DNA of 64,000 nucleotides from the NCBI RefSeq assembly GCF_000688335.1, contig NZ_JHZX01000001.1, positions 2,294,001 through 2,358,000 of the forward strand. The letters are read 5' to 3'. Below, piece after piece: positions 26,900-43,243 of the stretch (its first letter is position 1; every line of letters starts with the position of its first letter). Source of the DNA: Sediminibacter sp. Hel_I_10 (GTDB lineage Bacteria; Bacteroidota; Bacteroidia; Flavobacteriales; Flavobacteriaceae). The translations under genes and the position numbers were made by a program. Under the pieces are notes generated by a model, which ran no database searches, was not told the DNA's origin, and worked only from the letters and a program-made list of their open reading frames with translations.

Positions 26900-26971
26900 G
26901 CGAAAGTAGCTCAGGGGTAGAGCATCACCTTGCCAAGGTGGGGGTCGCGGGTTCAAATCCCGTCTTTCGCT
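26900..26971 (+). tRNA. tRNA-Gly (anticodon GCC)
   Basis: 72 nt with a 7-bp acceptor stem GCGAAAG/CTTTCGC, T discriminator, anticodon loop TTGCCAA closed by TCACC/GGTGG, and a T arm with GGTTCAAATCC. CCA is not encoded. Confidence 0.96.
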
Positions 26972-27014
26972 CTTTAAAGATAAATTCCAATGTCATGCCG
27001 AAAGGCTTGATGAC

Positions 27015-27099
27015 GCTGAAGTGGTGGAATTGGTAGACACGTTGGACTTAAAATCCAATGTCCGTTTAGGACGTACGGGTTCAAGTCCCGTCTTCAGTA
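27015..27099 (+). tRNA. tRNA-Leu (anticodon TAA)
   Basis: 85 nt with acceptor GCTGAAG/CTTCAGT, anticodon stem TTGGA/TCCAA and loop CTTAAAA (anticodon TAA). The long variable arm, TGTCCGTTTAGGACGT, is typical of type II tRNAs, and the T arm is GGGTTCAAGTCCC. It lies 43 bp after tRNA-Gly in the same unit. Confidence 0.96.
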
Positions 27100-27103
27100 C
27101 TTA

Positions 27104-27137: not shown

Positions 27138-27408
27138 GTGTCTATATCCCAGTTATTTATCTCCTATTTCAAACAGATGTTTTAAGTTTTACTGATTTGA
27201 ATTTATCTATAAAATACATTTCACGAAGTTTTTTTAGTAAATTTCTGTAAAAAACGAGGTTTTTATGTTAAAATTTGATTATATTAACATATTGTTCTCC
27301 ACCATTAGTTTGTTGTATTGAAAGAGCCCTAAAAGCATTTTCAAAATAAATTTTTTAGCTCTTTTGATTGAGTTGAGTTCGAAGTTTAATTCGCAGAAAT
27401 ATCATCAA
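27138..27408. other. AT-rich leader of the sigma-54 activator gene, nothing else recognised
   Basis: 271 bp without a credible reading frame. No CGGT-type palindrome and no GG-N10-GC element of the kind found after the activator gene is seen, so the activator does not obviously control itself from this side. Confidence 0.5.
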
Positions 27409-30400
27409 ATGAGTTCCTCTAAAAATAATTCGGTACCACCAGATATAAGTTTATTCTCTTCTTCGGAAGGTATTTATGCTAAGGTTTTTTATAATAGTCC
27501 TATTCCTAAATCAATTTCCAACGATCAAGATCGAAGACTGGTTGATGTCAACCAGTCATGGGAGCGGTTCACGGGCTATAAGCGGGAAGAGGTATTAGGA
27601 AAAAAAATAGAAGACTTAAAATTGATCTCATTTAGCGAAGCAGATTCCATACATAGCATGCTTTCAAAAAAAGAGATTCTTCAATCTTATGAAATTAGAG
27701 TAAAAAGAAAAAACGGAAGGTCTGCTTTTGGTTTAGCTACATTTCAATTAGTGACCATTAATCATAATGTTTACATCCAATCGTCAATATTAGATATTAG
27801 TGAGCTTAAGAAATCTCAAAATGAACTTTCTATTGCTCAAAATTTTTCAAATCAGCTCATAGACAATATGCATGAGTCCCTTGTGGTTTATGATTTAGAT
27901 TTGAAATGCGTAAGGGTAAATAAAGCCTATTGCGACCTCACAGGATTTAAAGAGGCAGATATTGTGGGAAAAAAGCAACCGTTCCCGCATTGGCCACCAG
28001 AACATTTTGATGTTATCATGAGATATGTATCTCAAGGTGTAAAAAATGGCATCGTCAAAGATCAGTTGGTTTTCAAGAAAGCCAATGGCGAACGCTTTGA
28101 AGCAGCTATGGCCTCTACTAAAATAACTAATATAGAAGGCAAAACCATCGGTTTCGTTTCTACCGCTGTAGATATTTCAGAGAGGATTCAATTTCAGAAG
28201 AAATTAAAGCTGGCGTCCGAGAAAGCGATTGAAAAAAAAGAAGCAATATTACAATTAGTAGAGTTTGTAGGTCAGGATTTTGAAAAGGTTCTAAAAAAAA
28301 TCACAGCGATTTCGGCTAAGGTTTTAAATATCCCGAGGGTAAGTATCTGGCAGTTTAATAATGATCATACCCAAATCAATTGCCTAAATGCATATCACTT
28401 AAACCCTGACCAGTTTAAAAATCACACAACATTGAAAACTAAAAAATACCCTAATTACTTTGAGTCTTTTTATGCCAATAAGTTAATCAATGTTAGTGAT
28501 GTTAAGGATAGTTATTTGTCAGCTTCGTTTATTAAGGATTACTTAGACCCTCATGGTATCACATCACTTTTGGATATTTTTATTAAAGGGGTAGATGCTG
28601 TTTTTGGTGTAATCTGTTTTGAACATATTGGAGGACCAAGAAAGTGGACCGATGAAGAGGTTGAATTTGTGACCATGATTGCGAGCATTGTGTCTTTAGT
28701 GGTTGAAAATAATGAACGAAAGAAAATTCAAAAAAAGTTATTGCTTGAAAAAGAGTTTTCCGAAGAATTAATTGGTTCTATGCAAGAGGGCATTTCCATT
28801 GTAAATCCTAAAGGAGAAACCATACGGGTGAACGATGCCTTTTGCAAAATGACTGGTTTTACCGAGAAAGAACTGCTAGGAGAAAAACCGCCGTTTAAAT
28901 ATTGGCCACCAGAGCACGAGACTTCCATAAAAAAATCCTTTGAAGATCTTTTTCAGCAGAAAAAAGTCATTAATGAGTTGACGTTTATGACTAAAAAGGG
29001 GAAGCGTTTTCCTGTATCCTTAGCGCTCTCAACGGTGAAATCAAAGAAAGGAGCGCCAGTGGCTTATTTTACGACGGCTACAGACATGAGCCAAAGAGTG
29101 AAAAATGAAGCGAAACTCCAAGAACGTATACAGACGTCCCAAGAACGAAAGCGGGTTATTTCAGAATTGGTAACCTTAATAGGTCAGGATTATGATACCG
29201 TGATTAAACGAATAGCTAAGTTGTCTTCTGAAGCGCTTAGTGCAGATCGCGTAACCATTTGGAAATATGAAGGTGATGATTGTCATTTGTTTAAAAAACT
29301 TAGTTATAATATAAAGGATCAACGCTTTGAAAAGGGAGGTGCGGTAATAAACACAAAAGATTTCCCAGAGTATTTTGAGATTTTTAAATCTAAGTCGCTT
29401 TTAAATGTTCGCAATATTAAAAATCATCCCGCAAGGGCATTGTTAGAGCATCCTTCTGAAGTCACTTCTTGTCTTGATGCTGTAATTCATGGAAAAAACA
29501 GAGCCTATGGTTTGATTTGCTTTGAAGCCTCAGGCCCAGAAGTGGTGTATACCGATCAGGAAGAGAATTTTGCGGCCTCTGTGGCCACTATCATTTCGCT
29601 TATGGTTGAGGCACGAGATCGTATGGAGGCCGAAGACCGATTGATTAAAGCCAATGATAAACTGCTCAGCGTCAATGCCGAGTTAAATACGCTCAAAAAA
29701 GAGTTAGAGCAACAAAATGTTTATCTCAGAGAAGAAATTGGTTTGGCGTTTAATTATGAGGAAATGGTTTACAGTAGTGACGCCTTTAGCCAAGTATTAA
29801 CAAATGTGGAGACGGTGGCGCATACAAAGGCTACTGTTTTACTCTTAGGCGAATCTGGTACAGGAAAAGAATTGTTGGCCAGAGCCATCCACAACATAAG
29901 TGATAGAAATACTAAGCCATTGATAAAAGTCAATTGTGCGGCAATCCCTAGAGAACTTATAGAGAGCGAGCTGTTTGGGCATAAAAAAGGGTCGTTTACA
30001 GGTGCTTTTACTGATAAGCTAGGTAAATTTATGCTTGCCGATGGAGGCACATTGTTTTTAGATGAAATTGGGGAACTGCCCTTGGAGATGCAGCCCAAGT
30101 TGCTAAGAGCTATTCAAGAATCTGAAATTGAACAAATAGGGAGTTCTAAAATAGAAAAGGTAGATATCAGGATTATTGCAGCTACCAATAAGGATCTTAA
30201 AAAAGAAGTAGCACAGAAAAATTTTAGGGAAGACCTCTACTTTAGAATTAATGTTTTTCCTATACACATCCCGCCACTACGGGAAAGGGCAGAAGACATT
30301 CCTATCTTAATAGAGCATTTTGTAAATAAGTATAGCAAAGACTATAATAAGAAATTAAAATACATCTCTGAGGAAGCAAAACTAAATTTGCAAACCTATG

Positions 30401-30690
30401 CTTGGCCAGGCAATGTACGCGAATTGGAAAACCTCATACAGCGTGCCGTTATTTTGTCTAAAGAAGATCGTCTAGAATTACCCGATATCGGTTCTTCTTC
30501 AAGTGAACAACTCATCTCGTCAACGACGTTAACTCTAGATGAGGTACAACGTTTGCATATTTTGAAAACGCTTCAAAAGTGTAAGTGGAAAATTGATGGT
30601 ACCGACGGCGCTGCGCAAAGTTTAGACTTAAAGCCCAGCACACTTAGAGATAAAATGAAAAAACTTCAAATTGTAAGACCGTCTAACTAA
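27409..30690 (+). CDS. Sigma-54-dependent transcriptional activator with PAS-PAS-GAF-PAS-GAF sensor
   Basis: 1093 residues from ATG 27409; a TTG at 27364 is possible but less likely. Order: PAS (about 25-140), PAS (145-265), GAF (285-430), PAS (450-570), GAF (590-735), coiled coil (740-785), AAA+ sigma-54 interaction domain (790-1010), Fis-type helix-turn-helix (1040-1093). Walker A GESGTGKE is at 814-821, the sigma-54 contact loop GSFTGA at 861-866, Walker B is TLFLDEIGELP, and the R-finger region FREDLYFRINVFPI. There is no receiver domain and no membrane segment, so it senses a cytosolic ligand or redox cue through PAS/GAF. It probably activates the operon just downstream (see the sites at 30690-30845). 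Confidence 0.93.
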   Translation: MSSSKNNSVPPDISLFSSSEGIYAKVFYNSPIPKSISNDQDRRLVDVNQSWERFTGYKREEVLGKKIEDLKLISFSEADSIHSMLSKKEILQSYEIRVKRKNGRSAFGLATFQLVTINHNVYIQSSILDISELKKSQNELSIAQNFSNQLIDNMHESLVVYDLDLKCVRVNKAYCDLTGFKEADIVGKKQPFPHWPPEHFDVIMRYVSQGVKNGIVKDQLVFKKANGERFEAAMASTKITNIEGKTIGFVSTAVDISERIQFQKKLKLASEKAIEKKEAILQLVEFVGQDFEKVLKKITAISAKVLNIPRVSIWQFNNDHTQINCLNAYHLNPDQFKNHTTLKTKKYPNYFESFYANKLINVSDVKDSYLSASFIKDYLDPHGITSLLDIFIKGVDAVFGVICFEHIGGPRKWTDEEVEFVTMIASIVSLVVENNERKKIQKKLLLEKEFSEELIGSMQEGISIVNPKGETIRVNDAFCKMTGFTEKELLGEKPPFKYWPPEHETSIKKSFEDLFQQKKVINELTFMTKKGKRFPVSLALSTVKSKKGAPVAYFTTATDMSQRVKNEAKLQERIQTSQERKRVISELVTLIGQDYDTVIKRIAKLSSEALSADRVTIWKYEGDDCHLFKKLSYNIKDQRFEKGGAVINTKDFPEYFEIFKSKSLLNVRNIKNHPARALLEHPSEVTSCLDAVIHGKNRAYGLICFEASGPEVVYTDQEENFAASVATIISLMVEARDRMEAEDRLIKANDKLLSVNAELNTLKKELEQQNVYLREEIGLAFNYEEMVYSSDAFSQVLTNVETVAHTKATVLLLGESGTGKELLARAIHNISDRNTKPLIKVNCAAIPRELIESELFGHKKGSFTGAFTDKLGKFMLADGGTLFLDEIGELPLEMQPKLLRAIQESEIEQIGSSKIEKVDIRIIAATNKDLKKEVAQKNFREDLYFRINVFPIHIPPLRERAEDIPILIEHFVNKYSKDYNKKLKYISEEAKLNLQTYAWPGNVRELENLIQRAVILSKEDRLELPDIGSSSSEQLISSTTLTLDEVQRLHILKTLQKCKWKIDGTDGAAQSLDLKPSTLRDKMKKLQIVRPSN

Positions 30691-30740
30691 CGGTATACCG
30701 TGTAATTAAAAATGAGGCAATATAAGCTCGCGGTTAACCG
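30690..30740. promoter_or_regulatory. Two palindromic upstream activator sites, 40 bp apart
   Basis: ACGGTATACCGT (30690-30701) and CGGTTAACCG (30731-30740) are perfect palindromes sharing CGGT-2-ACCG, with centres exactly 40 bp (about four helical turns) apart. A half site ACGGTAT follows at 30754. Neither has a T-tract, so they are not terminators. They lie about 120-160 bp before the predicted sigma-54 start site, the usual place for enhancer sites of a Fis-type activator. Confidence 0.55.
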
Positions 30741-30829
30741 TGGGATCAATTCTACGGTATGAATTTCTTCTGTTTTTAAACCTCTCGGCAATAGCTGTTT
30801 AAAATAGTTTTTGATGATTTTAAAAGATT

Positions 30830-30845
30830 TGGCATGTAAATAGCT
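30830..30845 (+). promoter_or_regulatory. Probable sigma-54 promoter
   Basis: TGGCATGTAAATAGCT fits the consensus TGGCAC-R-N4-TTGC. The obligatory GG and GC are present with exactly 10 nt between them, with TTGC changed to TAGC. The predicted start is near 30856, directly at the first ATG of the next gene. Confidence 0.55.
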
Positions 30846-30869
30846 CTTCCAATCATGGCGCAAAAAGCT

Positions 30870-31316
30870 ATGCTTATGGAAGATGAACGTATCATTGAAT
30901 TTAATCACGCTAAATTTTGGTGTAGTAATGATATTCTTTTTTGTGAGTTTAAGGATTCAGCAGTTGGCTGCACTTTAACTAAGGAAAGGGCAGAAGCTTT
31001 TATAAAAGCGATTGATAGTCTTACTGAAAAAGTACCAATGCCATTTTTAATAATTGTAAATGGTGCTTTGGGAAGTTTTACCTCAGAAGCTGCTACACTG
31101 TTTGCTACCAGTCCTATTTTAAAAAACGTAAGAATTTGTGAAGCCTATCTAATTAAGAAGATAAATGGTAAGCTCATTGTTAATTCTTATAAGCGGCTCT
31201 ATGAGCCTAAAACCCCATTTCACTTTTTTAATAACCTAATTGATGCCATGCAATTTTGTATGGCATCAAAAAATGATTTTTATGCAAGTCCCAAAGCTTC
31301 AAAACGAGAATTTTAA
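30870..31316 (+). CDS. Small DUF7793/STAS-like protein
   Basis: 148 residues if translation begins at ATG 30870. The first ATG at 30855 coincides with the predicted sigma-54 transcription start; 30876 is a third option. Seen: ERIIEFNHAKFWCSNDILFCEF, a helix with LTKERAEAFIKAIDSL, then MPFLIIVNGALGSFTSEAATLFA. This beta-alpha pattern is that of the DUF7793 group, which resembles STAS or SpoIIAA-like folds. No catalytic residue is evident. It overlaps the following kinase gene by 35 nt. A role as a regulatory partner of the kinase is inferred from position only. Confidence 0.7.
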   Translation: MLMEDERIIEFNHAKFWCSNDILFCEFKDSAVGCTLTKERAEAFIKAIDSLTEKVPMPFLIIVNGALGSFTSEAATLFATSPILKNVRICEAYLIKKINGKLIVNSYKRLYEPKTPFHFFNNLIDAMQFCMASKNDFYASPKASKREF

Positions 31317-33147
31317 AAAACAGAAACATGACTTATTTAATTCCCTTGACAACCAGCTAACCATTTCTGTAAATGATAAGTATGGTAGAATAACCTACGC
31401 TAATACTAATTTTTGCAGGTTATTGGGAGTTAAGCTAGAGTTCTTAATTGGTGAGACCAATGAGCTGCTAAAGTCGCATTTACATACTGATGGGATTTAC
31501 AGAAATTTATGGTCTACCATTCGAAAAGGTGGAAATTGGGAAGGCGTGCTCTTTTATAAGAAATCTGAAATCAATTTTTATTGGTTAAAAACAACCATTA
31601 CACCACTACGGGATGCCGTTGGGACTATTACTGGGTATCTTTCAATATATCATGATATCACAGATTATTATCAAAAGGAAATTACCGACGATACCGTCGT
31701 GGTAGGAGAAAGCACCTCTTTAAAAGCTATTACAGATGTTATATTATCTATAAACCAAAGAGGAAAAATAATAAAGGCCATTGGTGTTGAGAATCAAAAG
31801 AATTATGATAATCTCATCGGTTCTTACGTGTATGATTTTATTGATTCTGAGTATCATCAAGGAGCAAAACATAAGATCAAAGAGGTTTTTCAAGATGGCA
31901 ATATTGAGGAGTTTCAGTTTATGTCCAGTCCAACTGATGTGGAGCGCGCTTTGTTTATTTCAACAATAAGCCCTGTGGCCAACAGCTTTGAAGAGGTTAG
32001 TTTCGTTAATATTTCAACCGAAAGAAAAACCAGTGATATCGAAACGTTTAGTGAGTTGAAAGCTGTAGAAACAAAGTATAAAACTATTTTTAAATCCATT
32101 AGCGCTGGCGCTATCGTGATCACAGATCATGTAGGAACTATTGTTGAATGGAATAAGGGCGCCGAGTTGACCTTTGGGTATACAGAAGCTGAAGTTTTAG
32201 GTCAATCCCTGGCTATCCTAATCCCAAACCAACATATCGATAAGGGAAAAAAGGAACTGTTTCGAATCAAGGAACGTATTAAAATGAATAGCGAAGAGGG
32301 GTCGTTGGAAATTTTAGGTCTAAAGAAAAATGGAACTGAGTTTCCTTTAGAATTTGCTGGTAGTAGCTGGTTTTGCGGCAAAAATAGATATTACTGTGCG
32401 ATGATGTTAGAAACAACCAAACGTAAGAGTTTAGAAAATAAACTAAAACAAAAAACAATAGATCTAGAAACATTTTTGTACCGCTCGGCTCATGATCTTA
32501 AAGCACCTTTAACTTCTGTTGAAGGCTTGCTTAATCTTTTGAGGGATGATGTCATAGATGAGCAATTGGCTTCTGTGATTGATATGTTGGATATAAGTCT
32601 GGAAAAGGGAAAACTGATGTTGGATAACCTTGCTTTTGCCTCTAGAATTTCGCAACATAAAAAACGGGTGTCTGTCGTAGATTTTAAAAGCGAATTAGAA
32701 ACGGCGCTTCAGGTTTTAAGCAACTTGGAAAAATTTGAGGACATTGAATTTCGTATTCAAATTGATCAAGCCATATCCTTTTGCTGTAATGTAACCCTAA
32801 TACGTGCCATATTTCAAAATATTATTAATAATGCGATTATCTATAGTAAACCCTTAGCTCAAAATCACAAACCCTTTATTTCTGTTGAAATAGAACAGTA
32901 TCCAGATAAAGTTGAAATTCTAATTTCGGATAACGGGTTAGGCATTCGAAAAAAACATATCGATAAAATTTTCAATCTTTATTATAGAGCTAGTAATGAA
33001 GGTGGTCAGGGCTCCGGTCTAGGTTTGTATATCGTTAAATGTATTGTGGAGGATTTAAATGGAACCATAACCGTATCCAGTAAATTACACAAAGGCACAG
33101 AGTTTAAAATAGAATTACCCCATCTCCCTAAAACAGCGACACTATGA
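31282..33147 (+). CDS. Soluble PAS-domain sensor histidine kinase
   Basis: 621 residues from ATG 31282 (an upstream ATG at 31240 is possible). Three PAS-type domains (about 20-125, 140-255, 265-385) precede a dimerisation helix with phospho-acceptor His404 in RSAHDLKAPLTSVEG. The ATPase domain follows with the N box NIINNAIIYSK and the G boxes DNGLGI and GSGLGLYIVK. No membrane segment or signal peptide is seen, so sensing is cytosolic. Its stop overlaps the response regulator ATG (ATGA), so the pair is almost certainly a cognate two-component system. Confidence 0.92.
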   Translation: MQVPKLQNENFKKQKHDLFNSLDNQLTISVNDKYGRITYANTNFCRLLGVKLEFLIGETNELLKSHLHTDGIYRNLWSTIRKGGNWEGVLFYKKSEINFYWLKTTITPLRDAVGTITGYLSIYHDITDYYQKEITDDTVVVGESTSLKAITDVILSINQRGKIIKAIGVENQKNYDNLIGSYVYDFIDSEYHQGAKHKIKEVFQDGNIEEFQFMSSPTDVERALFISTISPVANSFEEVSFVNISTERKTSDIETFSELKAVETKYKTIFKSISAGAIVITDHVGTIVEWNKGAELTFGYTEAEVLGQSLAILIPNQHIDKGKKELFRIKERIKMNSEEGSLEILGLKKNGTEFPLEFAGSSWFCGKNRYYCAMMLETTKRKSLENKLKQKTIDLETFLYRSAHDLKAPLTSVEGLLNLLRDDVIDEQLASVIDMLDISLEKGKLMLDNLAFASRISQHKKRVSVVDFKSELETALQVLSNLEKFEDIEFRIQIDQAISFCCNVTLIRAIFQNIINNAIIYSKPLAQNHKPFISVEIEQYPDKVEILISDNGLGIRKKHIDKIFNLYYRASNEGGQGSGLGLYIVKCIVEDLNGTITVSSKLHKGTEFKIELPHLPKTATL

Positions 33148-33584
33148 TTTCAAACATTATGATTATTGACGATAATAAAATTGATTTATTTATAGGTCAA
33201 AAAATTATTGAAAAGTACAATCCAGAGATCCAGGTAAGGAGTTTTAATAATGCTATTTCTGCACTGAATTTTTTAAAAGTATCAGCACTAAAAAACTGCT
33301 CAAAAACCATTTCACCGCCAGATTTAATTCTATTGGATATCAACATGCCCCAAATGGATGGTTTCGAATTTATGGAGGCCTTCAAAAAGATGAAGCTTAT
33401 GGATGCGGCTATAAAAATTGTGGTGCTCTCATCATCGCTTTGTCATGATGACTTGGACAAGGTCAAAAACGAGCAACATTGTTTAGGTTATGTCTCAAAG
33501 CCCATAACTGTAGATAAATTGAGAGATGTTATTGAGAAAAAATCACATAATCATGACAATGACATTTCTGGAACATTTTTTTGA
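33144..33584 (+). CDS. Single-domain response regulator (CheY-like)
   Basis: 146 residues consisting only of a receiver domain: Asp9/Asp10, phospho-acceptor Asp65 in LILLDINMP, Ser96-region LSSSL and Lys in YVSKPI. There is no DNA-binding output, so it acts by protein interaction or as part of a phosphorelay. A 19-residue insertion-like stretch (around residues 45-58, Lys/Ser-rich) lies before the active strand. It overlaps the kinase gene by 4 nt. Confidence 0.92.
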   Translation: MISNIMIIDDNKIDLFIGQKIIEKYNPEIQVRSFNNAISALNFLKVSALKNCSKTISPPDLILLDINMPQMDGFEFMEAFKKMKLMDAAIKIVVLSSSLCHDDLDKVKNEQHCLGYVSKPITVDKLRDVIEKKSHNHDNDISGTFF

Positions 33585-33691: not shown

Positions 33692-35146
33692 ATGAAAAAA
33701 AAGAAATCAATTATTACAGTCGCACTAGTTTTATGCCTTTTTCATGTAGGATATAATTCTTATTCACAAGTAGGAATAGGCACTGCCACACCAGAAGAAT
33801 CTTCTGCCTTAGACATTAGCTCAACCTCAAAGGGTCTACTAGCTCCAAGAATGACTACCATACAGCGCGTTGCGATAGACACTCCTGCAAATGGACTTCT
33901 TGTATATGACATCACTGAAAATGCATTTTACTTTTATCAAAGCAGTGCATGGATCAGGATGGAATCTGAGGTAAGAGAGAATTTTAAATTGATAAAATCT
34001 GTATCAGACCTTAGTGAGGAGCTTACCGCTGGGGGAGGTTCAAAATATTTACTCAGCACTAATAAAGTTTATGAAATTAACGGGGTCATTAATTTAGCGC
34101 ATCCCATAGATTTAAATGAGGCCTATCTGACTGGGGTTGATTCTAGTGATGATATTCTAGTAAAATCAGGAGGCACCTTATTTGAAGGATCTAAGGGTGG
34201 GCTTATTAAAAATTTAACGATATCCGCCTCAGGAGCTACTGTATTCAATTTGTCAGGTTCAGGAAATCTAGTTATTAAAGACACTTATATTGCAAACTCT
34301 AATGCTGTTGGAAGTATTTCCGATTTTGATTTGGTGTATTTTAGTGTTGTTCAATACGTCAATAATACAGATGGAATTTCATTTAGCGATATTGGGAATT
34401 TGCTTCTTAGTAATACCGCTTGGCAATCTAGTAATTCGGGGACGTATGAAACGTTTTCAGGATTATTTAATTTGATTCAGAAACAGGGCGGCTTTATGGA
34501 GGTTGATGGATCTGCTGTTGGTATTGATGTTAGCGCAAACCCAACGCCAGCCAAAGCGGTGTTGACGGGTGCTAATTTTGCAGGAAGCAGCATACAATAT
34601 ATCAATAAGTATACCTCGGGAACGTTTCCAAATTATAACTTTACAAATGTATGGACAGTTAATTGTCCTGGTATTCCTGTAGAATCTGATGAAGCCAGCA
34701 CGGGCAATATTTATTATAACGGAAGTATCACAGCGGGTTTCGTTCAATCTATAACTAGTAATAGTCCAGTTAATTTATCAGGGTCTAGTAACACTAACAC
34801 AACCACTGCGGTGAATTTGTTGAGAACCTCTTCTCCTCAAAATAACCGTTTGACTTATAATGGTAAAAAGACAAAAACATTTCAGGTCAATGCATCATTA
34901 TCTGTTCGAGGCAATTCTGGAACTGGGGATTTTTATGCCTTCTTTATTCGGAAAAACGGAAATACAACCTTGGTAGAAACAAACTCCTTATTACGAGTAA
35001 ACAATACCACAGATATTATAAATAACGCAATTACTGGAACCGTAGAGTTATCACCAAACGATTATATCGAGGTTTGGGCACAACGCTTAACTGGTTCTGG
35101 TACCACCTCTATTGCTGTGTTTTCATTAAATTTAAATATTAAATAG
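33692..35146 (+). CDS. Secreted surface protein with flavobacterial N-terminal motif and fibre-like C terminus
   Basis: 484 residues: signal peptide (1-25, ending NSYSQ), then VGIGTATPEESSALDISS and KGLLAPRMT, a segment seen at the N terminus of many Flavobacteriia exported proteins. A beta-rich middle follows (about 100-370). The final about 100 residues (TFQVNASLSVRG ... DYIEVWAQR) look like a jelly-roll of the C1q/phage-fibre kind. No T9SS tail or lipobox is seen. The function is unknown, and adhesion is only a guess. A strong terminator follows. Confidence 0.65.
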   Translation: MKKKKSIITVALVLCLFHVGYNSYSQVGIGTATPEESSALDISSTSKGLLAPRMTTIQRVAIDTPANGLLVYDITENAFYFYQSSAWIRMESEVRENFKLIKSVSDLSEELTAGGGSKYLLSTNKVYEINGVINLAHPIDLNEAYLTGVDSSDDILVKSGGTLFEGSKGGLIKNLTISASGATVFNLSGSGNLVIKDTYIANSNAVGSISDFDLVYFSVVQYVNNTDGISFSDIGNLLLSNTAWQSSNSGTYETFSGLFNLIQKQGGFMEVDGSAVGIDVSANPTPAKAVLTGANFAGSSIQYINKYTSGTFPNYNFTNVWTVNCPGIPVESDEASTGNIYYNGSITAGFVQSITSNSPVNLSGSSNTNTTTAVNLLRTSSPQNNRLTYNGKKTKTFQVNASLSVRGNSGTGDFYAFFIRKNGNTTLVETNSLLRVNNTTDIINNAITGTVELSPNDYIEVWAQRLTGSGTTSIAVFSLNLNIK

Positions 35147-35529: not shown

Positions 35530-36369
35530 ATGGCAATTTACGAGACAAGATACGCGTCTAACCCAGAATCAGTTAAAGCAGCTGACACTCAAAAATTACG
35601 GGATGAGTTTTTAATTCAAAACGTTATGAAACAAGACACACTAGAATGGGTATACACTCATTATGATCGGTTTATGGTTGCTGGTGTGGTGCCCGTGGAT
35701 AAGTCAGTGTCATTAGTTACAATTGACCCTCTTAAAGCTGGTTATTTTTTAGAAAGAAGAGAATTAGGAATTATAAATATTGGTGGAACAGGTAGCGTTA
35801 CTGTTGACGGAACAACTTATGAGCTTCAGCACAAAGAAGCACTTTATGTAGGTCAAGGCAATAAAGAGGTTGCATTTTCTAGCGAGTTTGCTAAAAGTCC
35901 AGCACAGTTCTATTTAAATTCTACACCTGCACACCAATCATTTCCTACTAAAAAAATAGGTACAGATGATGTTGAAGTGATAGAATTAGGAGCACCTGAA
36001 ACCGCAAATGCAAGAACCTTAAGAAAGTACATTGTGAACAGTGTGGTTGATGTTTGTCAATTACAAATGGGGATGACTTCTATAAAAACAGGAAGTAGTT
36101 GGAATACAATGCCAGCTCACGTTCATGATAGAAGAATGGAAGTGTACTTCTATTTTGAAGTCCCAGAAGATCAAGCGGTTTGTCACTTTATGGGGCAACC
36201 TCAAGAGACCCGCCACATTTGGATGGCAAATAAAGAAGCTGTAATTTCACCACCATGGTCCATTCACGCAGGATCAGGAACCTCAAATTATTCATTTATC
36301 TGGGGAATGGCTGGAGAAAATTTAGACTATGGAGACATGGATGTCTGTAAAATAAACGAATTAAGATAA
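35530..36369 (+). CDS. kduI: 5-dehydro-4-deoxy-D-glucuronate isomerase
   Basis: 279 residues, the usual size. KduI converts 5-keto-4-deoxyuronate (DKI) to 2,5-diketo-3-deoxygluconate (DKII) in the breakdown of unsaturated galacturonate. Cupin metal ligands are visible in MPAHVHDRRMEVYFYFEVP, and the N-terminal YETRYASNPESVKAADTQKLR is the family signature. No signal peptide is present, so it is cytosolic. First gene of the nine-gene uronate operon, 7 bp before kduD. Confidence 0.97.
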   Translation: MAIYETRYASNPESVKAADTQKLRDEFLIQNVMKQDTLEWVYTHYDRFMVAGVVPVDKSVSLVTIDPLKAGYFLERRELGIINIGGTGSVTVDGTTYELQHKEALYVGQGNKEVAFSSEFAKSPAQFYLNSTPAHQSFPTKKIGTDDVEVIELGAPETANARTLRKYIVNSVVDVCQLQMGMTSIKTGSSWNTMPAHVHDRRMEVYFYFEVPEDQAVCHFMGQPQETRHIWMANKEAVISPPWSIHAGSGTSNYSFIWGMAGENLDYGDMDVCKINELR

Positions 36370-36376
36370 ACAGCCG

Positions 36377-37162
36377 ATGAACTTATTCAATTTAGAACAT
36401 AAAAGAGCTTTGGTTACAGGTGGTACGCACGGTTTGGGTATGGCTATGGCCGAGGGGCTTGCCAGTGCAGGAGCCGAGTTGATCATTACCAGTACAACAC
36501 CATCAAAATTAGAGGAAGCTTTAGATTACTATAAAGGAAAAGGCTATAAGGCTTCAGGCTATATTTTTGATGTAACTGATGAGGCTGTTGCAAAAGAAAA
36601 AGTAGCTTTAATTTCTAAGGAAATTGGAGATATTCACATTCTCGTAAATAATGCTGGAATCATAAAGCGTGAATCTGCTTTGACCATGCCGGTTGAAGAT
36701 TTTAGACGCGTGATTGATGTTGATTTAGTTGGCCCATTTATCATGGCTCAATTAATTGGCAAACAAATGGTAGAGCGCAAAGAAGGTAAGATCATCAATA
36801 TTTGCTCAATGATGAGTGAATTAGGTAGAAACACAGTAACAGCATATGCGGCTGCTAAAGGCGGATTAAAAATGTTGACGCAGAATCTGGCAACAGAATG
36901 GGCCAAACATAATATTCAAGTTAATGGTATTGGTCCAGGATATTTTGCGACGTCACAAACCGAGCCTATACGAGTAGATGGACACCCATTTAACGACTTT
37001 ATAATAAACAGAACTCCTGCAGCACGCTGGGGAAACCCTGAAGATTTACAGGGAGCAGCCGTGTTTTTGGCCTCTAAGGCAAGTGATTTTGTTAACGGAC
37101 AAGTGATTTATGTAGACGGTGGCATCCTCGCTACTATTGGGAAACCTACTAACGAAGATTAA
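36377..37162 (+). CDS. kduD: 2-deoxy-D-gluconate 3-dehydrogenase / 2,5-diketo-3-deoxygluconate reductase
   Basis: 261-residue short-chain dehydrogenase. TGGTHGLGMAMAEGLA is the cofactor loop, NNAG the support motif, Ser near residue 140 (ICSMMSELG), and YAAAKGG the catalytic Tyr/Lys. KduD reduces DKII to 2-keto-3-deoxygluconate (KDG) with NADH. Order with kduI is the standard one. It ends 16 bp before uxaC. Confidence 0.94.
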   Translation: MNLFNLEHKRALVTGGTHGLGMAMAEGLASAGAELIITSTTPSKLEEALDYYKGKGYKASGYIFDVTDEAVAKEKVALISKEIGDIHILVNNAGIIKRESALTMPVEDFRRVIDVDLVGPFIMAQLIGKQMVERKEGKIINICSMMSELGRNTVTAYAAAKGGLKMLTQNLATEWAKHNIQVNGIGPGYFATSQTEPIRVDGHPFNDFIINRTPAARWGNPEDLQGAAVFLASKASDFVNGQVIYVDGGILATIGKPTNED

Positions 37163-37178
37163 TTTTATACATTATTTA

Positions 37179-38582
37179 ATGAGCTCAAATTTTATACACG
37201 ATAATTTTTTATTAGAAAATAAATACGCTGAAGAATTATATCATAATTATTCTAAGCATCAGCCTATTATAGATTACCACAATCATCTTTCACCTAAAGA
37301 AATTTTAGATGATCAGGTTTACAATAATTTAACAAAGGTCTGGATCAACGGAGATCATTATAAATGGCGCGCCATGCGTACTTTGGGTGTAAACGAGAAG
37401 TTTATTACTGGAGATGCATCAGATAAAGAGAAGTTTATGCACTGGGCCAAAACGGTGCCTTATACTATGCGTAATCCTTTATATCATTGGACGCATTTGG
37501 AACTGTCTCGCTATTTTGACGTTAATGACTTATTAAATGAAAAATCTGCGGAAAAGATCTATGCAGAAACTTCAGAAAAATTAAGTAGTGCCGATTACAG
37601 CTGTAGAAATTTATTGAGAAAAGTCAATGCAGAACTCGTTTGTACCACCGAAGATCCTATAGATAGCTTAGAACATCATCAAAAACTAGCAACATCTGAT
37701 TTTGAAGTTAAGGTGAGTACCGCGTTTCGACCAGATAAAGCCATTTTAATTGCTAACAGTAGTTACAATGACTATATAGAAAGCTTAGGTAAAGCAGCAG
37801 ACATCACTATTGAATCCTACCAAGATTTAAAAGATGCTCTAAGGAGCAGGATTGCATATTTTAATACCAACGGGTGTAGATTGTGTGATCATGGGCTAAA
37901 TCAAATTTCATTTGTTGAGTTTACCGAGAGCGAAGTAGCAACTATTTTCAAAAAGAAACGTAACAAAGAGATCCTTTCCGACGAGGATGTTTTAAAATTT
38001 GAAACGGCAATTCTTCTGTTTTTAGCTGAAAGCTATCACGAATTTGGATGGGTGCAGCAGTTTCATTTAGGTGCACTTCGTAATAATAATGCGCGTATGC
38101 ATAGTATTTTGGGTCCAGATACGGGCTGGGATTCTATAGGAGATTATCCGCAAGCTGAAAAATTATCTGCATTTTTGAATGCATTGGATAGCAAGAATAA
38201 ACTAACCAAAACCATTATTTATAACTTGAATCCGTCTGATAATGAAGTTATGGCAACCATGATTGGCAATTTCAATGATGGAAGCGTCAAAGGAAAAGTG
38301 CAGTTTGGTTCTGGATGGTGGTTTCTAGATCAAAAAGATGGTATGACCAAGCAGTTAAATGCTTTGTCAAATATGAGCTTGATTAGTTGCTTTATTGGGA
38401 TGCTTACAGATTCTCGTAGTTTCTTGTCATTTCCAAGACATGAGTATTTTAGAAGAATTTTGTGTAACCTTGTAGGTGAAGAAGTTAATAGAGGTGAATT
38501 GCCAAAAGAAGAAATGGAATGGATTGGTAAAATAGTAGCAGATATTAGCTACGGCAACGCCAAGAACTATTTTAATTTTTAA
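37179..38582 (+). CDS. uxaC: Glucuronate (uronate) isomerase
   Basis: 467 residues from ATG 37179; a longer start at 37119 would overlap kduD. It isomerises D-galacturonate to tagaturonate and glucuronate to fructuronate. The amidohydrolase-type metal site HNH is in IIDYHNHLSPKEI (residues 30-42), with the long TIM-barrel sequence including GWVQQFHLGALRNNN and DSRSFLSFPRHEYFRR typical of UxaC. It opens the branch for saturated galacturonate, completed by uxaB and uxaA downstream. Confidence 0.97.
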   Translation: MSSNFIHDNFLLENKYAEELYHNYSKHQPIIDYHNHLSPKEILDDQVYNNLTKVWINGDHYKWRAMRTLGVNEKFITGDASDKEKFMHWAKTVPYTMRNPLYHWTHLELSRYFDVNDLLNEKSAEKIYAETSEKLSSADYSCRNLLRKVNAELVCTTEDPIDSLEHHQKLATSDFEVKVSTAFRPDKAILIANSSYNDYIESLGKAADITIESYQDLKDALRSRIAYFNTNGCRLCDHGLNQISFVEFTESEVATIFKKKRNKEILSDEDVLKFETAILLFLAESYHEFGWVQQFHLGALRNNNARMHSILGPDTGWDSIGDYPQAEKLSAFLNALDSKNKLTKTIIYNLNPSDNEVMATMIGNFNDGSVKGKVQFGSGWWFLDQKDGMTKQLNALSNMSLISCFIGMLTDSRSFLSFPRHEYFRRILCNLVGEEVNRGELPKEEMEWIGKIVADISYGNAKNYFNF

Positions 38583-38593
38583 ATTAAGTTTTT

Positions 38594-38938
38594 ATGATTG
38601 AAAGGGCTGTTTTCTTTGAAACAAATAAGCAGGAGTGGGAGGCCGTTGAAGATAAAATCAAAAGGCAAATTGTAGGATATGATGATACGATGATGATGGT
38701 GAATGTACGCTTCGAGAAGGGCGGCATAGGTCAATTACACCATCACATTCATACACAAAGTACATTTATTTCCGAAGGTAAGTTTGAAGTGACTATTGGC
38801 GTAGATAAAAAAATCTTAAAAAAGGGCGATTCTTTTTTTGTTCCATCAAACACACCTCACGGCGTTATTTGTATTGAAGAAGGCATGTTGGTTGACGTTT
38901 TTACGCCTATGCGTAAAGACTTTGTAGTCAAAAACTAG
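38594..38938 (+). CDS. kdgF: KdgF-type cupin, unsaturated uronate ring-opening enzyme
   Basis: 114-residue single cupin. The metal ligands appear in GQLHHHIHTQSTFISEGKFE and in NTPHGVICIEEG. KdgF proteins linearise 4,5-unsaturated galacturonate monomers (made by pectate lyases) to DKI, the substrate of KduI. Size, motif and position within a kdu operon all agree. No signal peptide, so cytosolic. Another small cupin role cannot be excluded from sequence alone. Confidence 0.88.
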   Translation: MIERAVFFETNKQEWEAVEDKIKRQIVGYDDTMMMVNVRFEKGGIGQLHHHIHTQSTFISEGKFEVTIGVDKKILKKGDSFFVPSNTPHGVICIEEGMLVDVFTPMRKDFVVKN

Positions 38939-39022
38939 TCCCTATAAAATGTGATTAACAATTAACCATAACGAGTAAGATGGTTTTACGATATAGTTTT
39001 AATTACAAGTAATTCAAAAAAG

Positions 39023-40006
39023 ATGTTCAAATCAATTATTAATAAGATAGCACCTGTTTTTATTGCAGCATTGATTTTTGGATGCAGTGAAATTGAGGAC
39101 GGGCGAACCTTAAAACTGGCTCACAGTTTAGATGTCAATCATTCTGTTCATAAAGCTATGATGAAGATGGGAGAGGATCTGGTCGAAATTTCCGGTGGAA
39201 AATTGAAACTTGAAATTTATCCGAGTCAGCAATTAGGTACAGAACGTGAATGTATTGAGCTTCTCCAAATAGGAAGTTTAGACATGACCAAAGTTTCTGT
39301 TGGCGTGATGGAGAATTTTGCGCCAAGAATGAGAGTGTTTGGTCTTCCATATTTGTTTGAAGATCGGCAACATGCATTTGATGTGCTAGATGGCCCTATT
39401 GGTCAAGAACTTTTAGATGAAGGCACGCAATATTGGATCAAGGGTCTAGGCTATTACGATGCGGGTAGTAGAAGTTTTTACACTAAAGACAAGCCCATCA
39501 ATACGCCTGAAGATTTGGAAGGCCTTAAGATTAGAGTCATGGAGAGTGTTACGGCAATGGACATGGTAAAGAGCTTAGGTGGCTCACCTACACCTATTTC
39601 TTGGGGAGAGCTATATACCTCATTGCAACAAGGTGTTGTAGATGGTGCCGAAAATAATGCGCCTAGTTTTTATCTATCTCGGCATTATGAGGTTTGCAAA
39701 TACTACTCTTTAGACGAGCATACCGTTTTGCCAGATGTTTTAATTATTGGAACGCACATATGGGAAAAATTATCTGCTCAAGAAAAAGAGTGGCTACAAG
39801 AAGCTGTAGATAAGTCGGTGATATACCAACGTACATTATGGGCAGACGCAGAAAATGAAGCTTTAGAAGAGGTGCAAAAGGCAGGAGTAACTGTATTAAG
39901 ACCAGATAAAAAAGCATTTTCGGATAATGTAGAAGGGGTTTATGATGCTTATAAAGATGATAAGGATATGCTAGATTTGATTAAGCGCATAAAAAAGACG
40001 AATTGA
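39023..40006 (+). CDS. TRAP transporter solute-binding protein (DctP family), lipoprotein
   Basis: 327 residues. The lipobox LIFGC gives a lipidated Cys21. Then the DctP fold: KLAHSLDVNHSVHKAMMKMG, GKLKLEIYPSQQLGTERE, and the substrate-site helix region GLKIRVMESVTAMDMVKSLG, GVVDGAENN. It captures an acidic sugar in the periplasm for the dctQM permease that follows directly. The location between kdgF and uxaB points to galacturonate or its unsaturated form. Lipid anchoring is unusual for DctP proteins of proteobacteria. Confidence 0.92.
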   Translation: MFKSIINKIAPVFIAALIFGCSEIEDGRTLKLAHSLDVNHSVHKAMMKMGEDLVEISGGKLKLEIYPSQQLGTERECIELLQIGSLDMTKVSVGVMENFAPRMRVFGLPYLFEDRQHAFDVLDGPIGQELLDEGTQYWIKGLGYYDAGSRSFYTKDKPINTPEDLEGLKIRVMESVTAMDMVKSLGGSPTPISWGELYTSLQQGVVDGAENNAPSFYLSRHYEVCKYYSLDEHTVLPDVLIIGTHIWEKLSAQEKEWLQEAVDKSVIYQRTLWADAENEALEEVQKAGVTVLRPDKKAFSDNVEGVYDAYKDDKDMLDLIKRIKKTN

Positions 40007-40007
40007 T

Positions 40008-40469
40008 ATGGCATTAAGAAAAAAGATAGACGGTATTTTAGGCAATCTTCTTGTCCTGATTATGGGCGTGATGGTCATCAACGTGATTTGGCAGGTGTTT
40101 ACAAGGTTTATTGTAGGAACTCCCAGTTCATTTACAGACGAGTTGGCTCGTTATTTAATGATTTGGTTAGGTATACTTGGAGCTGCTTATGTGTCTGGTA
40201 AAAATATGCACGTGGCTATTGACGTATTACCTCAAAAAGCTTCAGCTAAAACCCAAAAGAAATTAAAACTCATTGTGAGCGTGCTTATTATTTTATTTGC
40301 AGTGCTGGCAATGGTTATTGGAGGTAGTCGGTTAGTCTATATTACATATGTACTAGATCAGCAATCACCTGCTTTACAAATTCCTTTAGCTGTGGTATAC
40401 TTAGCAATTCCCTTAAGCGGATTGCTGATTACCTATTATAAAATTTCAGATATCTTAAATATCGAGTAG
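40008..40469 (+). CDS. TRAP transporter small permease subunit (DctQ)
   Basis: 153 residues with four membrane helices (about 12-34, 48-68, 85-108, 125-147) and the DctQ signature FTDELARYLMIWLGILGAAY. It joins the solute-binding protein and the large permease in an ion-driven importer. It starts one base after the dctP stop and ends two bases before dctM, clear operon spacing. Confidence 0.93.
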   Translation: MALRKKIDGILGNLLVLIMGVMVINVIWQVFTRFIVGTPSSFTDELARYLMIWLGILGAAYVSGKNMHVAIDVLPQKASAKTQKKLKLIVSVLIILFAVLAMVIGGSRLVYITYVLDQQSPALQIPLAVVYLAIPLSGLLITYYKISDILNIE

Positions 40470-40471
40470 CC

Positions 40472-41767
40472 ATGGATTATATCCCAATTTTAGTATTAGT
40501 AGTGAGTTTTATTGGTTTACTTTCTATAGGAACACCAGTTGCTTGGAGTATTTCTATTTCATCTGTCTTAACGATGCTTGTGAGTATTCCTGCATTGCCA
40601 GCATTTACAACGGTATCCCAACGTATGGGTACGGGTTTAGATAGTTTTGCATTGTTAGCCATTCCATTTTTTATTCTCTCAGGACAATTGATGAATAAAG
40701 GGGGCATCGCTCATAGACTTATCGCATTTGCCAAAACCTTGGTGGGATCACTTCCAGGAGGTTTGGCCTTAATTAACGTTATTGGAGCGATGTTGATGGG
40801 GGCAATTGCAGGTTCTGCTATGGCTTCTGCATCTGCCATGGGCAGTATTCTTGGACCAGAAATGGAAAAAGAAGGCTACTCAAAAGAGTTTGGAGCAGCG
40901 GTAAACATTACCTCTGCCACTACGGGATTAATCATTCCCCCGAGTAATGTATTAATCGTTTACTCTTTGGCAAGTGGTGGGGTTTCCATTGCAGCACTCT
41001 TTTTAGCAGGATACATCCCAGGAATTTTGACGGGATTGTTTTTGATGATCGTGGCATCTTTTTGGGCTAAAAAGAAAAAGTATAAACTTGGAGAACGAAG
41101 TTCTCTTAAAGAAGTGTTTAAAACATTTATTGACGCGGTGCCGAGTTTGTTTCTTTTGATCATTGTGATTGGAGGGATTGTAACTGGCGTTTTTACAGCT
41201 ACAGAGGCGTCTGCTATTGCAGTGCTATACACGCTTGTTCTTGGCTTTATATACAAGGAAATCAATACAAAATCCCTCCCTGAAATTTTGTTAGACTCCT
41301 CGATCACTACTGCCGTAGTTATGTTGTTGATTGGTGCCTCCATGAGTATGTCTTGGGTGATGTCTTATGAAAATATTCCACAAGATATAAGTTCCTCGTT
41401 ATTGGCGATAAGTGATAACAGAATTGTGATTCTACTCATCATTAATCTCATCTTATTGTTCGTCGGTATTTTTATGGATATGACGCCTGCAGTATTAATT
41501 TTTACACCAATATTCTTACCAGTAGTCGTTGGTTTAGGTATGGATCCCGTTCATTTCGGAATCATTATGGTCCTTAACTTATGTATAGGTCTCTGCACAC
41601 CACCCGTGGGCTCAGTTCTCTTTGTGGGTGTGGGTGTTGCCCAAACCACTATTCAAAAAGTTATGAAACCCTTGTTGCCCTTATTTTTGGCAATGGTTAT
41701 CGCTCTGTTTTTAGTGACTTACATACCTGAGTTAACCCTTTGGTTGCCAAGTTTATTCAACCTTTAA
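40472..41767 (+). CDS. TRAP transporter large permease subunit (DctM)
   Basis: 431 residues, about 12 membrane segments. Typical signatures: LDSFALLAIPFFILSGQLMN, GSAMASASAMGSILGPEM, and the hairpin region SATTGLIIPPSNVLIVYS, repeated later as LNLCIGLCTPPVGSVLFVG. It carries the substrate with Na+ across the inner membrane. Sited in a uronate operon, so uronate import is inferred; no MFS hexuronate transporter is seen in the window. Confidence 0.94.
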   Translation: MDYIPILVLVVSFIGLLSIGTPVAWSISISSVLTMLVSIPALPAFTTVSQRMGTGLDSFALLAIPFFILSGQLMNKGGIAHRLIAFAKTLVGSLPGGLALINVIGAMLMGAIAGSAMASASAMGSILGPEMEKEGYSKEFGAAVNITSATTGLIIPPSNVLIVYSLASGGVSIAALFLAGYIPGILTGLFLMIVASFWAKKKKYKLGERSSLKEVFKTFIDAVPSLFLLIIVIGGIVTGVFTATEASAIAVLYTLVLGFIYKEINTKSLPEILLDSSITTAVVMLLIGASMSMSWVMSYENIPQDISSSLLAISDNRIVILLIINLILLFVGIFMDMTPAVLIFTPIFLPVVVGLGMDPVHFGIIMVLNLCIGLCTPPVGSVLFVGVGVAQTTIQKVMKPLLPLFLAMVIALFLVTYIPELTLWLPSLFNL

Positions 41768-41782
41768 TTAAATTAGAATCCT

Positions 41783-43243
41783 ATGTCTGCAACGTTAGAT
41801 AAAAAATTAAATAGGGCCAATCTTGGCTTAGAAAAAAAACTACCAATAAAAGTGCTACAGTTTGGTGAAGGTAATTTCTTAAGAGCCTTTGTAGATTATG
41901 CGCTTCAACAATTAAATAAGTCAGCAGATTTTAACGCTGGTGTGGCAGTTGTTCAGCCTATTGATCGCGGTATGGTTGACATGCTCAATGATCAAGACGG
42001 ATTGTATACTTTGTTTTTAAAAGGTATTCAGAAAGGTGAAGAAATTCAGGAAGCAGAATTGATTACAAACATTGTAAAAGGTGTTAATCCGTATTCAGAC
42101 TTTCAAGATTATTTAGATCTTGCAAAAGAAGAATCACTTCAATTTGTCATATCCAACACTACAGAAGCTGGTATTGCCTATGTTGAAAGTGACACTATGG
42201 ATATGAAACCACCAAGCTCATTTCCCGCAAAACTAACCTTATTGTTGCACGAACGCTTTAAGCACTTTAATGGGGCAGAAGATAAAGGGTTAACCATCAT
42301 TCCTTGTGAATTGATCAATCATAATTCTGAAACTCTAAAGGAGATCATCTTAAAATATGCGACCCTTTGGAAATTGGATAGCGCATTTACCGATTGGTTG
42401 TCTAGCAGTTGTTCTTTTCATAGTACTCTAGTAGACCGCATAGTGCCTGGTTATCCAAAAGATGATATTGAAGCTTATAACGCACAATTAGATTATAAAG
42501 ACAATTTAATTGTAGCGGCCGAAGTGTTTTTACTTTGGGTGATTGAAGGTGGAGATGATTTAAAGAAAAAATTACCATTTCATAAAACAGATTTAGACGT
42601 TAAAATTGTAGATGATATGCAACCCTATCGTACTAGAAAAGTACGAATCTTGAATGGCGCGCATACCTCTATGGTTCCTTTTTCTTTACTCTACGGAAAT
42701 GAAACGGTTAAAGAAACTGTAGATAATGAATTTACGGGAGCTTTCGTAAATAGGGCCATTTTCGAAGAGATTAATGATACACTTCCGATGGAAAAAGCAG
42801 AATTAGACAGTTTTGCTGAAGCCGTTTTAGATCGCTTTAGAAACCCATTCATCAAGCATAAATTAGCAGATATTGCCTTAAATTCAATTTCGAAATTTAA
42901 GGTGCGTGTATTGCCTAGTTTATTGGAATTTCAATCTAAAAACGGAAAGTTACCAACACACTTAACCTTTGCTTTAGCCTGTTTAATTAGATTCTATAAA
43001 GGCACATGGAACGGCGAGCAATTACCAATTAAAGATAGTGACGACATTGTTGCAGAATTTCAATCCATTTGGAAAGCAAACACGATGAAAGAAGTCGCCA
43101 CAGCAGCACTTCAAAATACAGAATTTTGGGATGAGGATTTAACCAAAATCAACACTTTGACCGAAGCCATTACATTGGCTTTAGATGAAATTGAAGCTAA
43201 CGGTATTGAGCAGGGTCTGGCCAATTTCAGTAAAACATATTAA
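41783..43243 (+). CDS. uxaB: Tagaturonate reductase
   Basis: 486 residues of the mannitol dehydrogenase-type long-chain family. Starts with KVLQFGEGNFLRAFVDYALQ (nucleotide site) and contains VKIVDDMQPYRTRKVRILNGAHTS, the conserved Lys/Asn/His active region of UxaB. It reduces D-tagaturonate to D-altronate with NADH. Lies 15 bp after dctM and 22 bp before uxaA. Confidence 0.96.
   Translation: MSATLDKKLNRANLGLEKKLPIKVLQFGEGNFLRAFVDYALQQLNKSADFNAGVAVVQPIDRGMVDMLNDQDGLYTLFLKGIQKGEEIQEAELITNIVKGVNPYSDFQDYLDLAKEESLQFVISNTTEAGIAYVESDTMDMKPPSSFPAKLTLLLHERFKHFNGAEDKGLTIIPCELINHNSETLKEIILKYATLWKLDSAFTDWLSSSCSFHSTLVDRIVPGYPKDDIEAYNAQLDYKDNLIVAAEVFLLWVIEGGDDLKKKLPFHKTDLDVKIVDDMQPYRTRKVRILNGAHTSMVPFSLLYGNETVKETVDNEFTGAFVNRAIFEEINDTLPMEKAELDSFAEAVLDRFRNPFIKHKLADIALNSISKFKVRVLPSLLEFQSKNGKLPTHLTFALACLIRFYKGTWNGEQLPIKDSDDIVAEFQSIWKANTMKEVATAALQNTEFWDEDLTKINTLTEAITLALDEIEANGIEQGLANFSKTY

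Follow-up and report, generated by a model that had tools for sequence, protein, structure and literature searches.

A predicted sigma-54 switch with paired operator sites ahead of a DUF7793 signalling operon in Sediminibacter sp. Hel_I_10

We analyzed a stretch of 64,000 nucleotides from Sediminibacter sp. Hel_I_10, referred to as the window, in which a gene for a sigma-54 activator is followed by a gap with several candidate regulatory sites and then by a putative operon. The features are listed below with their positions in the window; the gaps mentioned are those between activator and operon in the sample described further on.

27364..30690, plus strand: activator (sigma-54 enhancer-binding protein, 1108 aa), predicted, with the TTG start as listed
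30690..30701, unstranded: putative operator (enhancer) site 1, ACGGTATACCGT; a like site in 22/22 protein-fetched gaps
30730..30741, unstranded: putative operator (enhancer) site 2, GCGGTTAACCGT; spacing 39-42 bp in 22/22 protein-fetched gaps
30788..30802, plus strand: position of the IHF-consensus site of relatives, not recognisable in the window
30830..30845, plus strand: predicted sigma-54 promoter (-24/-12), TGGCATGTAAATAGCT; element in 22/22 protein-fetched gaps
30855..31316, plus strand: DUF7793 protein with a STAS/SpoIIAA-like model; DUF7793 match 1.4e-9
31282..33147, plus strand: soluble PAS histidine kinase; PAS and HATPase_c, HisKA slightly below cut-off
33144..33584, plus strand: CheY-like single-domain response regulator, labelled in 16/20 relatives
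33692..35146, plus strand: secreted protein SEC; C1- or SEC-like genes follow in 9/20 relatives

The activator ends with the stop codon TAA at 30688-30690, the last base of which is the first A of ACGGTATACCGT; the inner 10-mer of site 2, CGGTTAACCG, occupies 30731-30740, and the centres of the two operators are exactly 40 bp apart. A sequence-only reading of this DNA had claimed such paired palindromes directly after the activator stop, which can be read directly in the sequence, as well as a GG and a GC ten bases apart, which are found inside TGGCATGTAAATAGCT at 30831-30832 and 30843-30844. The promoter had been placed about 120 bp further on; it does lie downstream, but the distance was loose, its start being approximately 95 bp from the centre of the second operator and approximately 135 bp from that of the first. 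The DUF7793 and kinase genes overlap by 35 bases and the kinase and regulator genes by 4 bases, an arrangement as in an operon, of which SEC, after a gap of 107 bp behind the regulator, is the probable last gene. Two tRNA genes, tRNA-Gly(gcc) and tRNA-Leu(taa), are situated between mutS and the activator (26900-27100), and a uronate-type sugar catabolism cluster (KduI, SDR, UxaC, cupin, TRAP transporter DctP/Q/M, mannitol dehydrogenase family), probably unrelated to the switch, is found downstream (35530-43243).

Pfam confirmed the earlier gene calls (PAS/GAF/AAA+ activator, DUF7793 protein, PAS kinase and CheY-like regulator). The activator comprises three PAS and two GAF stretches, the AAA+ domain Sigma54_activat (PF00158, E 4.4e-71) with AAA_lid_14, and a putative Fis-type HTH_8 at the C-terminal end; PAS and GAF score above the cut-off, and HTH_8 (E 9.6e-4, 19.3 bits) falls below its curated cut-off of 22. 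Since no receiver domain is present among its Pfam hits, the activator is classified as a one-component sensor. The AAA+ loop, which in sigma-54 activators is usually GAFTGA, reads GSFTGA here. The genome containing the window (G000, 4.1 Mb, one contig) has four strong Sigma54_activat proteins, the best match being the activator described here, and also carries rpoN (one match, 176.8 bits, 489-aa open frame), a gene whose absence the sequence-only reading had named as an argument against its proposal.

The DUF7793 protein is modelled with a STAS/SpoIIAA-like fold and would thus be placed by its predicted structure among STAS-fold proteins. Its identity to the STAS partner proteins SpoIIAA, RsbS and SiaC is 9-15%, and a phosphorylation site of the anti-anti-sigma type was sought in the alignment of DUF7793 relatives, which contains no invariant Ser/Thr column. 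The DUF7793-like gene is present as two consecutive copies in several genomes. Among the 20 fetched relatives, in which genes were labelled by BLAST with the window proteins at 1e-4 so that diverged genes can be missed, a kinase-like ORF was labelled in 17 and a CheY-like regulator in 16, and in nine the gene series continues with C1- or SEC-like secreted proteins. G049 (L188) passes from its DUF7793 genes to secreted C1 without a labelled kinase or regulator, which suggests that the two-component part of the operon may be dispensable. The earlier idea that one sensor activates another sensor system therefore holds insofar as kinase and regulator are usual, but describes only a part of the output, given the secreted proteins in nine relatives and the case of G049. 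SEC itself has, in a low-confidence model (mean pLDDT 64.7), a beta-helix-like middle and a C1q/TNF-like C-terminal head; in Foldseek this part of the same low-confidence model matches C1q/TNF-like trimeric surface heads (BxpB/ExsFA, Bdellovibrio Bd2734).

When only the DUF7793 protein was used as the query, matches were found in 22 of 299 genomes of the family Flavobacteriaceae (window included), that is, in 21 of 236 sampled genera; one of them, in G124, is weak (22% identity, E 7.7e-5). An activator homolog lies directly upstream of the DUF7793 gene in 21 of these 22 genomes, window included, the exception being G233, and its AAA+/HTH part is 64-78% identical in those fetched relatives (19 of 20) that have it directly upstream of the operon. 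G118 (L200) carries two consecutive copies of the complete unit (activator, pair, promoter, DUF7793, kinase, regulator). Forty six genomes were searched for the activator: the three with DUF7793 have a match of at least 67% and the other 43 have at most 57% among the matches listed. Two genomes of the genus of the window lack DUF7793 and have no activator match above 52% among the matches listed; hence, judged by these searches, the unit is patchy.

For comparison of the gap we used 37 gaps: 22 protein-fetched ones (from 21 genomes including that of the window, G118 contributing two) and 15 pattern-fetched ones with an activator-type HTH hit (Winogradskyella, Psychroserpens, Olleya, Bizionia, Muricauda, Robiginitalea and others), the latter providing no evidence for the pair. 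L049, L052, L062 and L082, which come from the same genomes as G008, G130, G108 and G172, were left out, as were loci of other phyla. Two ACGGWATWCCGT-like sites, defined by at least five of the six CGG/CCG bases and three of four A/T in the centre, were found 39-42 bp apart, most commonly 40, in all 22 protein-fetched gaps. After dinucleotide shuffling of the 35 promoter-bearing gaps, on average 0.005 of them contained the pair, compared to 34 observed; as 13 of these 35 were fetched via the pair pattern itself, the unbiased count is the 22/22 of the protein-fetched gaps. L057 is without a pair only through an activator stop call that runs on. The positions flanking the sites are rich in A+T and much more variable than the sites themselves. 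At site 2 the centre is NATN in approximately 34 of 36, compared to TTAA in the window.

The window genome (4.1 Mb) contains a single occurrence of CGGTWWACCG-N18..48-CGGTWWACCG and none of the reversed pattern, and a single ACGGWWWWCCGT is found at five places, with 12 for the reversed control; single sites are thus not rare, and it is the pairing that counts. The strict form ACGGWATWCCG-N27..34-CGGWATWCCG was identified in ten of the 299 family genomes, at one place each and always in the activator-operon gap (reversed control 0/299); it misses weak pairs such as those of G168 and of the window, where site 2 has the centre mentioned above. One operator combined with the promoter gave 12 matches in 24 genomes, 11 of them at the activator-operon locus, with none in the control. 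Because nearly all hits of both scans fall at this locus, it seems, within the reach of such patterns, that the activator acts on one main target. The twelfth match of operator plus promoter (G163:C15:13269-13376, L225) is located away from the activator-operon locus and is possibly due to chance.

The sequence-only reading had proposed to look for the palindromes and for TGGCA-N7-GC in the same gap of related genomes. A GG-type -24/-12 element, TGG[CT]A[CT]-N5-[TA][TAG]G (TGGYAY-N5-WNG), is present in 22/22 protein-fetched gaps, 139 to 156 bases after the activator stop in each of them, and in 13/15 pattern-fetched gaps. The pattern is thus found in 35/37 gaps (shuffles: mean 0.52, maximum 3). 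Over these 35 gaps it resembles TTTGGCAY-N2-C-N-ATTG, where TGG, the next A and the last G are partly fixed by the search pattern. The stricter TGGCA form was recovered in 20/22 protein-fetched gaps; the GC of the -12 element, which had been called invariant, is kept in only three of 22, the window included, and a C follows the last G in 14% of the 35 gaps. Relatives mostly have GG-N10-G, as ATTG, at the position where the window reads TAGC.

This departure of the window from the consensus of its relatives, together with a weak sigma-70-like match overlapping the -24/-12 element, could be taken to mean that the operon has a housekeeping promoter and that the -24/-12 match arose by chance in a gap rich in A+T. 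The number of sigma-70-like matches (one found, 1.1 expected) is that expected by chance, so a sigma-70 promoter was rejected; an accidental -24/-12 element is rejected by its conservation in every protein-fetched gap, far above the shuffles, and the element stays with the operon in G233 (see below). We regard this explanation as scarcely credible. Transcription from the predicted sigma-54 promoter would start at approximately 30856, 12 bases after the -12 element; this start, if used, makes ATG 30855 unusable. The DUF7793 gene probably starts at ATG 30876 (MEDERIIEF...), which corrects the listed start, and the N-terminus encoded from ATG 30876 is closer to those of relatives than the one encoded from ATG 30855.

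Between operators and promoter, many relatives have a third element. The IHF consensus, WATCARNNNNTTR, is matched without a mismatch in 11/22 protein-fetched gaps and in one of the 13 pattern-fetched gaps with the promoter, and all 12 of these sites start 40-42 bases before the TGGCA of the promoter (shuffles: mean 0.125 of 35, maximum 1). The consensus in the reverse orientation was found in 3/35 gaps, and perfect matches at other offsets are present in L034 and L078. The best match in the scanned stretch of the window has three mismatches and lies at another offset; the element escaped the sequence-only reading because the IHF-like site is degenerate in the window. Two HU/IHF-family proteins are encoded in the window genome, both scoring under the cut-off of every IHF and HU model.

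A hairpin with a T-rich tail that includes an operator was observed in 10 of the 37 gaps (L014, L015, L016, L023, L025, L030, L034, L035, L075 and L094) when a stem of at least seven pairs followed by at least five T in nine bases was required. Site 2 is involved in eight of these gaps and site 1 in three, and the stems of L023, L025 and L034 have 22-26 pairs. Such hairpins would be expected if the palindromes were simply the transcription terminator of the activator gene with no role in protein binding. The other 27 gaps, including that of the window, fail the same test, and a terminator has no need of the nearly fixed CGG/CCG bases and the spacing that both sites have in common.

A clear case is G233, in which the operon DUF7793-kinase-regulator-SEC is found without an activator alongside. 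Upstream of this operon, ACGGTATACCGT is followed at a spacing of 40 bp by a second site, ACGGTATTTCGA, and then by TGGCATACCCTTTGG; the activator homolog (68%) is encoded on another contig, and no operator was found in the 300 bases after its stop. This separation shows that the sites belong to the promoter of the operon and not to the 3' end of the activator gene. Given G233 and the gaps failing the hairpin test, the terminator-only reading was rejected and is, in our opinion, very improbable. In the hairpin-bearing relatives one sequence apparently serves both as DNA operator and as RNA terminator, judging from the predicted stems, so that double use is possible in some species, where the hairpins could shield the operon from read-through. 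A second natural separation was observed in G168, where a pair of secreted-protein genes, C1-SEC, lies far from the operon and is preceded by ACGCTATTCCGT and ACGATATACCGA, 39 bp apart, and by TGGCACTCCTTTTGG. These sites are degenerate, five sites of such quality being present in a 12-kb stretch, and G168 is therefore weaker evidence than G233.

Sites and promoter might still serve another regulator or another sigma-54 activator, with the adjacent activator acting elsewhere, since its binding is predicted and three further strong AAA+ activators are encoded in the window genome. We consider this improbable: the adjacent activator co-occurs with the operon even in the unlinked case of G233, the strict pair was found nowhere else in the 299 genomes, and the same pair stands near a sigma-54 activator in most of the listed gammaproteobacterial loci. 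The latter come from a wider scan with the pair pattern, which yielded at least 117 stretches, 80 loci being listed, many of them without an activator hit in the DNA around the locus. Nine of the listed loci are gammaproteobacterial, and seven of these (Woeseiaceae and others: L048, L051, L055, L059, L077, L104 and L115) have the ACGGWATWCCG pair near the coding region of a sigma-54 activator AAA+ domain. Six of these have an activator ORF that begins at the pair or within approximately 35 bases of it; the ORF of L104 is not listed. At L088, one of two listed loci from Deltaproteobacteria, an activator domain lies approximately 560 bases from the pair; the distance between pair and activator gene is approximately 2.5 kb in Pseudodesulfovibrio (L119). 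The HTH is 30-39% identical to that of the window in five gammaproteobacterial loci where it was aligned and 46% identical in L119. The distribution of the pair suggests an operator recognition code shared across phyla. One Spirochaetaceae MAG has the pair pattern on five listed contigs (L056, L090, L098, L101 and L121), and the two occurrences in L121 fall inside an ORF built of SAPRPPV repeats; its matches are probably repeats and not operators. When the DUF7793 alignment was used to scan the phylum, with at most 10 candidates scored per genome, 7/395 genomes matched, all but that of the window weakly, and the search to a distance of approximately 1.5 kb from the seven weak DUF7793 loci yielded neither an activator, a kinase or a regulator nor a CGGWWWWCCG site.

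Taken together, we consider it highly likely that the locus works as a sigma-54 switch dedicated to one main target, in which the adjacent activator, the two operators and the -24/-12 promoter drive the DUF7793 operon. The earlier claim of a self-contained unit of activator, paired enhancers, promoter and operon is supported by its conservation in relatives. Genes, sites, spacing, conservation and the site-operon linkage in G233 were observed computationally; activator binding, looping, sigma-54 dependence, a single transcript, a signal and the roles of the products are proposed by analogy with established sigma-54 systems. The cytosolic PAS/GAF activator would sense a signal, and its Fis-type C-terminal domain would bind, as dimers, the two ACGGWATWCCGT-like operators, whose separation corresponds to about four helical turns. 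Looping of the DNA over approximately 95-135 bp, which an IHF/HU-type bend would assist in many relatives, would then allow the AAA+ ring to open, via ATP hydrolysis, the complex of RNA polymerase and sigma-54 waiting at TTGGCAY-N5-TTG. The transcript is predicted to encode one or two STAS-like DUF7793 proteins, usually with the PAS kinase and the CheY-like regulator; secreted proteins are added in a sizeable minority of relatives and probably in the window. Against this interpretation stand the window copy, a weak member of the group with TTAA in the centre of site 2, the IHF-like element missing and TAGC at -12, as well as the HTH_8 score below the Pfam cut-off, the GSFTGA loop, the patchy distribution of the unit and the match away from the locus in G163.

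A more extended interpretation is held tentatively, at slightly less than even chances: a Flavobacteriaceae circuit with one main target in which the large cytosolic PAS/GAF activator commands STAS protein, kinase and regulator along with exported, T9SS-sorted, trimeric-fibre-like surface proteins through a two-site ACGGWATWCCGT code used across phyla, with a bend site in many members.

In systems of the NorR-norVW, FhlA/HyfR and NifA type, a protein with a sensor part, an AAA+ domain and a Fis-type HTH acts from palindromic upstream sites, with a bend site, on a -24/-12 promoter, and the activator adjoins its target. The unit in the window is similar in these features, except that its Fis-type HTH scores below the Pfam cut-off and that the IHF-consensus site is found in part of the relatives and not in the window. 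In sigma-54 systems such a bend site is frequent without being required. It differs in that the activator has a PAS/GAF array of approximately 800 residues and reaches the cut-off of none of the equivalog models (nifA 375.7 of 528.85 bits, FhlA 368.2 of 830, NorR 354.7 of 476), that the operator is ACGGWATWCCGT-like, and that the target is an operon for signalling and secreted proteins. The architecture is therefore the classical textbook one and is new in detail, not in kind.

The sequence-only reading knew of no description of this arrangement, and our search of open-licence PubMed Central papers likewise found none. Little was found in the open-licence literature on sigma-54 control in Flavobacteriia, and no paper on DUF7793. 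Predictions of sigma-54 regulons that include Flavobacteriia place promoters in Bacteroidota at TonB, GrpE and protease genes (PMC12316311), and the accessible portion of that paper mentions neither a DUF7793 operon nor an operator or activator of this kind. The accessible main text on the Desulfovibrio sigma-54 regulome (PMC4641369) contains no CGG or CCG. One of the operator 10-mers is contained in 25 open-licence papers, and no title among those listed is about such an operator; one of these papers deals, by its title, with RpoN in Bradyrhizobium (PMC13207237).

The analysis ties DUF7793, an uncharacterised family, to a modelled fold, a predicted promoter and candidate partners, and from phylogenetic footprinting alone it proposes a DNA-binding specificity for a Fis-type domain. 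For sigma-54 control in Flavobacteriia, it offers a complete predicted promoter with a candidate activator and what appears to be one main target.
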